Source of the DNA: Pseudodesulfovibrio alkaliphilus
Lineage (GTDB): Bacteria > Desulfobacterota > Desulfovibrionia > Desulfovibrionales > Desulfovibrionaceae
Direction of reading: 5' to 3'
DNA length: 64,000 nucleotides
Assembly: GCF_009729555.1 (NCBI RefSeq)
Contig: NZ_WODC01000008.1
Coordinates: 62,001 to 126,000, forward strand
Positions within the stretch are counted from its first letter, which is position 1. Every line of letters starts with the position of its first letter. Positions 10,902-54,301 of this stretch are shown here, piece after piece. The notes beneath the pieces were generated by a model. That model saw nothing but the letters and a program-made list of their open reading frames with translations. It made no database searches and was not told where the DNA came from. The translations under genes were made by a program, and so were the position numbers.

Positions 10902-11405
10902 GTGACCATTTCCAAGGTCGATTTGCTCAACAAGCAGTTCTCGCGCAGTCTGATCGGGTATTCGCGTCTGGAGGTGGACCAGTTTCTGCTGGAATTGGCC
11001 GACGTTATCGGCGAATCGGCCGAGGCGCACAAGGCGCAACGCAGGAAGATCAAGCAGCTTGAGCTGGCGCTCAAAGAGTATCGGCAGCGGGACGAAACCC
11101 TGCGCGATACCCTCATGAGCACGCAGAAGATGGTGGACGACCTCAAGGTGGCCGCCACCAGGGAGGCGCAGCTTATGCTCGACGAAGCCAGAGCAAAGGC
11201 CGACGCCACGGTCCAGCGCGGGCACAACCGGCTGGCCCAGATTCATGAGGAGATCGAAGACCTGAAACGCAGGCGAACCCAGTTCGAGGTTCAGCTCAAG
11301 GGGTTGCTCAAGTCGCATCTGGAGATGATCGAAATGAGCGATCCCGACAGGGACAAGGTGGAAGAGCTTGAGTCCAAGCTCACATACTTGAAGAAAGTCG
11401 AATAA
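10902..11405 (+). CDS. DivIVA-domain coiled-coil protein
   Basis: 167 residues. The N-terminus KVDLLNKQFSRSLIGYSRLEVDQFL matches the DivIVA membrane-targeting domain, normally ending DVDxFL. Long coiled coils follow, from about 35 to 165 (RRKIKQLELALKEYRQRDETL and onwards). DivIVA proteins bind negatively curved membrane at poles and septa and recruit partners. Starts with GTG 10902 behind GGAGG, between yggT and yggU, a division-associated order better known from Gram-positive genomes. Confidence 0.85.
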   Translation: MTISKVDLLNKQFSRSLIGYSRLEVDQFLLELADVIGESAEAHKAQRRKIKQLELALKEYRQRDETLRDTLMSTQKMVDDLKVAATREAQLMLDEARAKADATVQRGHNRLAQIHEEIEDLKRRRTQFEVQLKGLLKSHLEMIEMSDPDRDKVEELESKLTYLKKVE

Positions 11406-11419
11406 GGCGGGATTGTCAT

Positions 11420-11728
11420 ATTTCCCTACCAGAGTTTGTCAGCAGGTGCGGCGGAGGATGGCGCATCGCCGTATGGGTGCAGCCCGGGGCCAGCAGGAGC
11501 GAGGTCGTCGGGGTCTACCAGCAGTGCGTCAGGATTCGGCTGTGCGCCCCTGCAGTGGATAACAAGGCCAATAAGGCCCTCGTGGCCTTTGTGGCCGATG
11601 CGTTGAAGGTGAAGAAGGGTCAGGTGAGCATTGAGTCGGGCCGGAGCGCCCGCAGGAAGACCCTGGCCCTGGATGCGGCGGCGGCGCCAGACTGGATCGG
11701 GCTCTCTCCGGCCGGTTGCCCGCGTTAA
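11420..11728 (+). CDS. DUF167 / YggU family protein, apparent ATT start
   Basis: The core WRIAVWVQPGASRSEVVG and APAVDNKANKALVAFVADAL is that of the YggU (DUF167) family, small alpha-beta proteins of unknown role. The only standard start in frame is GTG 11477, which would cut off the first beta strand (WRIAVWV). Codons upstream are open and read LPEFVSRCGGGWRIAV, as expected for the family, but offer no ATG, GTG or TTG after the divIVA stop. ATT 11420, about eight bases after GCGGG, is the best candidate. Gene identity is secure; the start is not. Confidence 0.72.
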   Translation: MSLPEFVSRCGGGWRIAVWVQPGASRSEVVGVYQQCVRIRLCAPAVDNKANKALVAFVADALKVKKGQVSIESGRSARRKTLALDAAAAPDWIGLSPAGCPR

Positions 11729-11750: not shown

Positions 11751-11981
11751 ATGGAAGCCAAGGATCTTGAACTCATCGAGATGTACGGGGCCGAGGATCC
11801 CGAGCTGATGGCGCTTTGGGAGCAGCATGTCGTGTATGAGAAAATGCTCGACAAGATGGAGGCAAAGTCGTTTCTCTCTCCCACCGAGGCCCAGGAAGTG
11901 AAGGAGCTCAAGAAGAAGAAGCTGGCTGGCAAGACTAAAATGCAGTCGCTTCTGGACAAATATCGGACCCTGGAGGCGTAG
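11751..11981 (+). CDS. DUF465 (YdcH-like) small coiled-coil protein
   Basis: 76 residues forming a helical hairpin: [25 protein letters not shown], then [26 protein letters not shown]. The spacing of the LKKKKLAGK segment is typical of DUF465. Function unknown. ATG 11751 follows AAAGGAGC. It ends one base before ilvB, so it is cotranscribed with the branched-chain amino-acid genes. Confidence 0.82.
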
Positions 11982-26646: not shown

Positions 26647-27600
26647 TCAATGCAGCCAGCAGGCCACCTGGATGCCGGGCGCCACTTCCCGGAGTTCGGG
26701 TCGTTGTGCCGGGCAACGATCAAACGCCTTGGGACAGCGGGGGTGGAAGGGGCAGCCCGAGGGCGGGTTCATGGGGCTTGGGAGTTCTCCTTGCAGGGGA
26801 ATGCGCTTGGTTTGTTGCGCGGGATCGGGTGTGAGCACGGATGAAAGCAGGGCTTCGGTATAGGGGTGCCTGGGGGCGGCGAATATTTCCGCGCCCGGAG
26901 CGATTTCCATGATCCGGCCCAGGTACATGACGGCCACCCGATCTGCGATGTGGCTGACCACGGACAGGTCGTGTGAGATGAAAACATAGGTCAGGCCCAG
27001 TCGACCCTGCAGAGCCCTGAGCAGCCGCAGGATCTGAGCCTGGACCGAGACATCCAGTGCCGAGACCGGCTCGTCGCAGACGATCAGGTCCGGGTCCAGG
27101 GCCAGGGTGCGGGCCACGGCCACGCGCTGGCGTTGGCCGCCGGAGAACTCATGGGGATAGCGCGTGGCGTGCTCGGGACGCAGGCCAACGAGGCCGAGCA
27201 GCTCATCCACCCGGGCTCGACGTTCGGCCCGGGTGCCGATGGCGTGGATGTCCAGCCCTTCGCGGATGATGGAGCCGATCTTTTGGCGCGGATTAAGCGA
27301 CGAGTAGGGGTCCTGGAAGATCATTTGCATCTTGCGGCGCAGCGCCTTTTCGGGCCAGTCGGCCATGTCGCGGCCCTGAAATACGATGTTGCCGGAACTG
27401 ATGGCCTCAAGGCCCATGATGCACCGGGCCAGAGTGGATTTGCCGCAGCCCGACTCTCCCACCAGACCGAGGGTCTCGCCCTGGCTGACGGTCAGGCTGA
27501 CGCCGTCCACGGCCCGGACGGCGTCGATCTTGAGGCCCAGCAGGCCGCTGGTGACTCTGTAGTGCTTGCCCACGTCGATGAGTTGGAGAAAGGCGGAAAT
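26647..27600 (-). CDS. Oligopeptide/dipeptide ABC transporter ATPase (OppF/DppF), apparent ATT start
   Basis: Cytoplasmic ATPase of a peptide importer. Walker [11 protein letters not shown]-loop [14 protein letters not shown], signature [13 protein letters not shown], Walker [17 protein letters not shown], and the C-terminal oligo_HPY Fe-S/zinc-like region ([21 protein letters not shown]). The first standard start, GTG 27573, would delete the initial strand [14 protein letters not shown] 27600 lies eight bases after a perfect AGGAGG (27614-27609) and gives [14 protein letters not shown], exactly the family N-terminus. In frame with oppD, separated by one TAG. 317 residues from ATT. Confidence 0.9.
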
Positions 27601-53079: not shown

Positions 53080-54210
53080 ATGTTCCGTAATCTCGCCGTT
53101 TTTATCCTGACCCTGGCCCTGCTGGCCGGATGCTCCAATACTGCCGATGAAATCGGAGTGGTAGCCCGCGTCAACGGTGCACCCATTTATCTTTCGCAGC
53201 TTGAATTCCAGCATGACCAGTTCCAGGTGGACGCCGTGGGCGGCTATGTGCCCAGCGTGGAAAACCTCAAGAACGAGTACGGCGAGATCCTGGCCGAACT
53301 CATCGTGCAGGAGCTGGTTGTCCAGGAGCTTGAAAAACGGGACATCGGCGTCTCGGACCACGAGATGCTCAAGGCCGAGGAGGAAGTCCGGGCCGACTAT
53401 CCCGAGGGAGCCTTCGACCAGATGCTGGTGGAGGAGTATATCGATCTCAAGGCGTGGCGTCTCCAATTGCGCAACCATCTGGCCATGCGGAAGTTTTTTT
53501 ATCAGGTGCTGCGGCCCCAGATCAAGATCGACTATCGCGAGGCCGAACAATATTATCGTGACCGAATCTCGGACTTTTATCTTCCCGAATCGCTGCGTAT
53601 CCTGGTGGTGCGCGGCCCCAGCCGCGAGATAGTGGGCAAGGCCGTGGAGCGCTTTCTGGCCGAGCGGGACCATCTGGACCTGACCACCGCCTTTGGCGAG
53701 GTGGAGACCCGCGATGTGATGATACGGGAGGAACGGCTGTCTGCCACCTGGAAAAACGCCCTGACCGGCGTGGCTCCAGGGCAGGCCAGCGGCGTACTCA
53801 CAGATCGTTTCGGTTTTGAAGCCCTGGTTTTGCTGGAGCGCAGCCCGGCCAAGGTTCTTGAGCCCGCCCAGGCCTACCCCCTGGTGGAAAACGCCCTGGT
53901 CGAGCGCAAGTTGCACGATGCCTTTGACGCATGGCTCGACACGGCCATGGCCCGCGCCAGGATTTCCTTGAGCAGCCACCTGTTGTCTTCGGAAGAATTC
54001 CCGCAGCTTGCGCCGTTGCCCATGTCCGACCCGGAGGATTCCGATGGAGCGGAGCCGGAGCCCTTGATGCAGGACCTTCAGGACGAGGACCTGAGTGACG
54101 ATGTTTCCGGCGCGGACGAATCCGAGGGAGACGAATCAGGAGAGGACGAGATGGGCTCGGAAGACGAGTTCAACGGTCAAGAATCCATCAATGACGCCGA
54201 AAATGGATAA
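53080..54210 (+). CDS. SurA-like folding lipoprotein with acidic tail
   Basis: 376 residues. A lipobox LLAGC (Cys18) directs it to a membrane. The body resembles the SurA N-domain plus a parvulin-like segment (VVARVNGAPIYLSQLEFQHD, ELIVQELVVQELEKRDIGVSD, and LRILVVRGPSREIVGKAVERF). The last 60 residues are strongly acidic (EDEDLSDDVSGADESEGDESG-like). Parvulin active-site residues are not clear, so it may be a chaperone only. It precedes the canonical surA gene. Confidence 0.8.
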   Translation: MFRNLAVFILTLALLAGCSNTADEIGVVARVNGAPIYLSQLEFQHDQFQVDAVGGYVPSVENLKNEYGEILAELIVQELVVQELEKRDIGVSDHEMLKAEEEVRADYPEGAFDQMLVEEYIDLKAWRLQLRNHLAMRKFFYQVLRPQIKIDYREAEQYYRDRISDFYLPESLRILVVRGPSREIVGKAVERFLAERDHLDLTTAFGEVETRDVMIREERLSATWKNALTGVAPGQASGVLTDRFGFEALVLLERSPAKVLEPAQAYPLVENALVERKLHDAFDAWLDTAMARARISLSSHLLSSEEFPQLAPLPMSDPEDSDGAEPEPLMQDLQDEDLSDDVSGADESEGDESGEDEMGSEDEFNGQESINDAENG

Positions 54211-54301
54211 CCCGGCGCGTTCGTTGCATAGTTTGCATAAAGAGACTAGAATCCGTCACCATCAGCGAATCAAGCCCTCCGGGGTTTTTGGGAGACACTT
54301 C

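Follow-up and report, generated by a model that had tools for sequence, protein, structure and literature searches.

Comparative evidence for a conserved AUU or AUC start codon of yggU in Pseudodesulfovibrio

Introduction

Where does translation begin in a gene whose conserved N-terminus lies ahead of every standard start codon in its frame? This question is raised by yggU of Pseudodesulfovibrio alkaliphilus, which is found in the window (the whole stretch of 64,000 nucleotides analysed here) on the 185-kb contig C8 of a 3.2-Mb genome. An ATT codon stands at the position where the protein would be expected to start. AUU and AUC start codons are rare and weak, and they usually keep a protein scarce.

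The yggU locus

The gene order at the locus is HAD phosphatase, yggT, divIVA, yggU, a DUF465 gene and ilvB; the names HAD, yggT and ilvB were taken from the translations. The positions of the relevant features are given in Table 1.

Table 1. Positions in the window of the features discussed
Feature	Position	Strand	Remarks
divIVA, upstream gene, GTG start	10902..11405	+	PF05103, 110 bits; stop TAA 11403-11405
TAAGGCGGG, Shine-Dalgarno-like	11403..11411	+	overlaps divIVA stop codon; 8-base spacer to ATT
T at -1 of yggU ATT	11419..11419	+	T in 22 of 24 ATT/ATC species
ATT, predicted start codon of yggU	11420..11422	+	ATT in 19 and ATC in 5, together 24 species, one clade
yggU (DUF167), 102 aa	11420..11728	+	read from ATT 11420; stop TAA 11726-11728
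GTG, sole canonical in-frame codon near yggU N-terminus	11477..11479	+	rejected as start; not conserved
DUF465 gene, 3' of yggU	11751-11981		
dppF/oppF-like ABC ATPase	26647..27600	-	from ATT 27600-27598; PRK11308, ABC_tran

The yggU frame is open from an in-frame TGA at 11369-11371 to the TAA at 11726-11728. Read directly from the sequence, it holds no ATG, GTG or TTG between that TGA and GTG 11477, and the claim of a preliminary description of this DNA that no standard start lies in reach of the N-terminus is thereby borne out. Fourteen bases separate the divIVA stop codon from the ATT in the window. The first eight bases of TAAGGCGGG are the same as TAAGGAGG but for one mismatch, and a ribosome binding site at a workable spacing is thus present in the window. 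The upstream region of the relatives contains a G-rich stretch that varies in strength, and when the 24 bases ahead of the start are compared across 23 species, -10 and -9 belong to the most constant ones. Two other codons were considered as the start of yggU and rejected. ATA 11402, which overlaps the divIVA stop codon, has a counterpart at that codon in one relative only (G015), and TTG 11413 lies in another frame and is missing in the same relative.

Where coding begins

Read from the ATT, the product matches PF02594 with 82.8 bits (cut-off 30.9) over positions 1-75 of the 76 in the profile, and TIGR00251 with 85.7 against a curated cut-off of 35. An alternative reading is that the true start is the internal GTG 11477, which would give an 83-aa protein that lacks the first strand, and that the conservation upstream of it is incidental. 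No canonical codon precedes this GTG in the frame, and a protein started there still scores 72.3 bits in Pfam; however, the match then covers positions 9-75 and positions 1-8 are lost. The preliminary description had placed the segments LPEFV and WRIAVWV upstream of the sole GTG; both are in frame with ATT 11420 and with GTG 11477. The structure of E. coli YggU (1n91) aligns at query residues 13-83, and residue 13 is the GW of GWRIAVWV, so that a segment upstream of the GTG falls inside a known YggU structure.

The divergence among species also bears on the GTG. It was calculated for the 23 species in which the ATT or ATC codon lies exactly at -20 from the QPGA motif; G019, where the codon is at -19, was omitted. 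Over the 24 bases that precede the ATT or ATC, pairwise divergence is about 0.55 whatever the phase; at the start codon itself it is 0.00/0.00/0.30 by codon position, and in the 19 codons that follow it is 0.25/0.30/0.53. Because the pattern changes at that codon, from one that is the same in all phases to one that depends on codon position, coding appears to begin at the ATT, and it is from there that the alignment has the character of a protein. In the stretch before GTG 11477 a Pro, a Gly and two Trp residues are invariant in the 23 species and third positions are free. For yggU, dN is lower than dS in all seven pairs with a computable dS (of eight compared). In addition, 9 of the 24 ATT/ATC species have their first canonical codon 28-39 codons downstream of the ATT or ATC. 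A start at the GTG is therefore very improbable.

Distribution of the AUU/AUC start in the genus

A yggU match was found in 32 of the 36 genomes of the genus. The start of yggU in these carriers is ATT in 19, ATC in five, an ATG at -27 in six, an ATG at -23 in one (G010) and a TTG at -18 in one (G022). The ATG at -27 overlaps the divIVA stop codon in all six of its carriers, and in G019 the ATT/ATC codon is one codon nearer to the YggU core than in the other species. The proposal that ATT 11420 is the initiator behind a G-rich site gains weight from these counts, since 24 of the 32 genomes with yggU share an ATT or ATC at this site. The counts also speak to a miscalled base that hides an ATG, one of the two explanations the preliminary description had offered for odd starts. 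ATT or ATC stands at the site in 24 assemblies, and several of these consist of a single contig. The record of the close relative P. pelocollis SB368, whose YggU is 91-92% identical, also has ATT. The chance of such an error is negligible.

Could the codon simply be an internal isoleucine codon? In 17 of the 24 ATT/ATC species there is no canonical in-frame codon between the upstream stop and codon +16, and the other seven have one nearby (TTG at -6 in G017, GTG at -2 in G028, and GTG at +4 in G002, G012, G033, G027 and G032), counts in which the species share ancestry. ATT makes up 9-40% and ATC 48-86% of the isoleucine codons in six sampled genomes, and the start of yggU is ATT in 19 of the 24 species; this excess of ATT is suggestive, though shared ancestry keeps it from being a clean test. 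The codon at -20 in the six species with ATG is ATC, ATA, CCA, ACA, ACA and GAA. By simple counting, indels aside, two of the six do have isoleucine there (ATC, ATA), and the position is not a conserved isoleucine among the ATG species.

A tree was built from DivIVA, YggT, the HAD protein, IlvB, OppF and InfC (36 rows, 1347 columns) by a quick method with no bootstrap; G032, G031 and G013 cover less than half of the columns, and the N-termini of OppF and InfC were left in. All 24 ATT/ATC species are found in one 29-member clade with an SH-aLRT of 100; 26 of its members carry yggU, and ATT or ATC is the start in 24. G010, G022 and three species without yggU also fall within this clade, while the six ATG species and G013 lie outside it. 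The start state changes three times in all on the tree. In the outgroup genera of the family, a canonical codon occurs in the frame no more than about 31 codons ahead of the motif in 23 of 25 loci; the exceptions are G133, with no canonical codon, and G122, with none close, both of which are draft assemblies. Two loci of the sample from the order, L044 and L045, were misread by the search motif and enter none of the counts. As AUU/AUC extends across one large clade and the carriers outside it have canonical starts, a single origin of the AUU/AUC state through the loss of an ATG is most likely, and within the genus ATT is most likely the derived state. Judged by position, the weak start can also be lost again: the ATG of G010 stands three codons further upstream, and in G022 a TTG is found two codons further downstream.

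Some further observations were made in the course of this comparison. In G011, G018 and G030 (loci L060, L059 and L058), which are tree neighbours of G022, divIVA is present and no yggU was found at the locus or in a genome search. Neither yggU nor divIVA was found in the 81%-complete genome of G013. Elsewhere in the family, in a different genus, the codon that is the yggU ATG in G157 (L221) reads AGG in the draft assembly of G122 (L210); this is either an error or another odd start.

The base before the start codon and infC

A T precedes the yggU ATT or ATC in 22 of the 24 species (the exceptions are G028 and G002), as against 11 of 118 canonical starts (9%) on contig C8, and it is kept while the neighbouring bases vary among the 23 species compared. 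On contig C8 and its counterparts in six genomes, T is found at -1 in 15% of 597 ATG starts and 6% of 35 GTG starts. The T before the yggU start looks compensating. Esposito (2003) reportedly described a U at -1 that pairs with the anticodon loop of the initiator tRNA and aids weak codons.

The start of infC has the same feature. infC is present in all 36 genomes of the genus, and in each of the 30 loci fetched and read (L061-L090) its start is ATA, after T, behind GAGG, so that infC has a non-canonical start in the same organisms in which yggU has AUU or AUC. For the outgroup, 16 of 28 infC loci could be read by script, with 12 giving no pattern match, and all 16 have an inferred start of ATA, ATT or ATC that follows a T. 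As a separate observation, T stands at -1 in 8 of 16 TTG starts (50%, six genomes), a pattern that would fit a preference of weak starts for U at -1; these numbers are small.

A second gene and the frequency of AUU starts

The preliminary description referred to a second gene in the window with an ATT start, without naming it here. The best candidate is the dppF/oppF-like ATPase, which is a real gene with ATT in four species; acpS was also considered and was set aside, as it has an ATG. The start region of the oppF-like gene reads TAG GAG GTT TCC GCC ATT TCC. A match was found in 32 genomes of the genus, 30 loci were fetched and 29 were read (that of G007 was truncated). The start is ATT in the window genome (G000) and three relatives (G015, G003 and G001), ATC in G004, ATA in G023 and ATG in 23, with four state changes on the tree. 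Since a GTG is found nine codons downstream of the ATT in G000, G015 and G003, a shorter product is possible in these three genomes. The ATT of oppF follows a C and not a T, and U at -1 is therefore not general. From these alignments, AUH starts (AUU, AUC or AUA) appear to have more than one origin in the genus.

Is ATT used as a start codon more often in this organism than in others? Open reading frames of contig C8 with at least 50 codons and matches in at least two of five relatives (G003, G001, G005, G017 and G026) were surveyed; 171 were kept and 170 aligned. Eight were flagged, and yggU and oppF alone survive inspection; both lie in the window and both had prompted the search. No AUH-start gene survived in the 121 kb of contig C8 outside the window. 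The other six flagged frames were rejected: 649 is at a contig edge, 348 and 605 reflect a conserved ribosome site or leader, 1070 and 1049 were judged antisense and 1679 has a usable ATG. In a start-column test of 144 frames, ATT, ATC or ATA filled 4 of 788 cells. One is in ORF 1280 of G001, whose frame is doubtful, one is an internal column of the oppF frame and two belong to a MATE gene, of which the window copy has an ATG seven codons upstream; the second MATE cell is from G003. In a second sample, the 100 kb around infC, 26 frames were kept and 18 aligned, synteny being lost, and infC, the positive control, was the only one recovered. At the scale of a contig these counts provide no sound evidence for an elevated use of ATT starts, and the suggestion that ATT initiation is unusually frequent here finds no support, as only two already known genes survive among the 170 conserved frames.

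A SurA-like peptidyl-prolyl isomerase at 54210-54300 on the + strand has an ATG in G003 and seemingly no start in the window, where one of two upstream TTG codons would be needed.

Proposed mechanism

The explanation that best fits the data as a whole is that yggU is translated from AUU 11420 by weak initiation just after divIVA and is probably sensitive to IF3, and it is regarded as highly probable. Comparison brings initiation at the AUU close to established, and sensitivity to IF3 is likely by analogy, judged from the class of the codon. Initiation at the AUU with fMet-tRNA would be carried out by ribosomes that have just terminated on divIVA, or by 30S subunits that bind at TAAGGCGGG. The U at -1 may help through extended pairing with the anticodon loop of the initiator tRNA, an idea from earlier work, and the yield of YggU would be low. 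Since IF3 rejects AUU, AUC and AUA, translation of yggU is expected to depend on IF3; abundant IF3 would lower it and scarce IF3 would raise it, together with that of infC with its AUA start. According to an excerpt of the source (PMC2268962), re-initiation in E. coli is reduced by additional IF3, and work cited there has IF3 inhibit non-canonical starts.

The closeness of divIVA and yggU could also be explained by a DivIVA-YggU fusion made by frameshift or readthrough. The divIVA stop is only 9-17 bases from codon -20 of yggU in 31 of the 32 genus loci, those measured, as a fusion would allow; however, for 23 of the 24 ATT/ATC species the frame relation between the two genes is 0 in nine, 1 in three and 2 in 11, and most bases between the divIVA stop and the yggU start vary. 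In these 23 species the divIVA stop is 9-15 bases from the yggU start, and because this spacing occurs in all three frames, a fusion is extremely improbable and re-initiation or Shine-Dalgarno-guided initiation of yggU is likely.

Does the weak start have a regulatory meaning? It has about an even chance of having none, the AUU being a tolerated weak start that was fixed once in a gene whose product is needed in small amounts; this reading disputes regulation and not the start itself. The single origin on the tree agrees with it, as does the modest pressure on the start suggested by the two canonical-start species and the three species with no yggU found inside the clade. On the other hand, ATC occurs in five scattered species and ATG never took the site, although it is one base change away; these events are too few for a test. 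The retention of T at -1 among varying neighbours also argues against mere tolerance.

A more far-reaching proposal, which is speculative and rather unlikely as it stands, is that Pseudodesulfovibrio keeps a small IF3-responsive set of AUH-start genes (infC with AUA, yggU with AUU/AUC and some oppF genes with AUU/AUC/AUA), that the yggU start and its U at -1 are under selection, and that the output of YggU after divIVA would report the ratio of IF3 to 30S subunits. If this is true, the set would tie YggU, a widespread and uncharacterised small protein, to the state of the ribosome and to cell division.

Comparison with known systems

A known gene of this kind is infC, which encodes IF3, starts with AUU, AUC or AUA and is autoregulated. 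Like infC, yggU has an AUH start behind a Shine-Dalgarno stretch; however, YggU is no translation factor, so there would be no autoregulatory loop, and the AUU/AUC start of yggU is found in one clade of one genus. The AUU start of pcnB in E. coli is said to limit expression of that gene. It belongs to a different protein, and it was shown by experiment whereas the start of yggU is supported by comparison.

Three further cases are described in sources available as excerpts. sigR of Streptomyces has a GTC start that is repressed by IF3 and is kept in 32 of 34 species (PMC5472188). It resembles yggU, as far as that excerpt goes, in being a rare non-AUG start conserved across a genus, but the codon is GTC, the gene encodes a stress sigma factor and the effect of IF3 was measured. 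In S. aureus, cvfC1 starts with AUU, and ccpN and infC with AUA, with an output of about 10-30% of that from AUG (PMC13009471). On this partial account, cvfC1 and ccpN are, like yggU, conserved AUH starts outside infC; they have an extended Shine-Dalgarno sequence and reporter data, whereas the stretch before yggU is shorter and varied and in the window overlaps the upstream stop codon. Fixed non-canonical starts in Listeria core genes are reported, again in excerpt, for six of 2265 conserved genes, including infC with ATT and rnhC with ATC (PMC13068326). They are likewise rare, but were found within one species, while that of yggU is shared by 24 species.

In the literature surveyed as titles and abstract openings, no non-AUG start of yggU or DUF167 and no study of start-codon use in Pseudodesulfovibrio was found. 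Errors of gene finders at the starts of sigR and infC are documented in the excerpt of PMC5472188, and gene finders limited to ATG, GTG and TTG would probably shorten or miss YggU in these genomes. In the same body of partly seen work, conserved AUH starts outside infC are rare, and the reported ones were found by experiment. For yggU, comparison alone points to an AUH start that is kept in most of a genus, arose once and reverted twice to canonical codons. The species that carry the gene could thus serve as a natural series (ATG, TTG, ATT, ATC) for studying the tolerance or use of weak starts in bacteria and the role of U at -1. On the evidence of the aligned genomes, the start of yggU is a real and conserved non-AUG start on a gene other than infC, and it joins a kind already known from infC, sigR and cvfC1.
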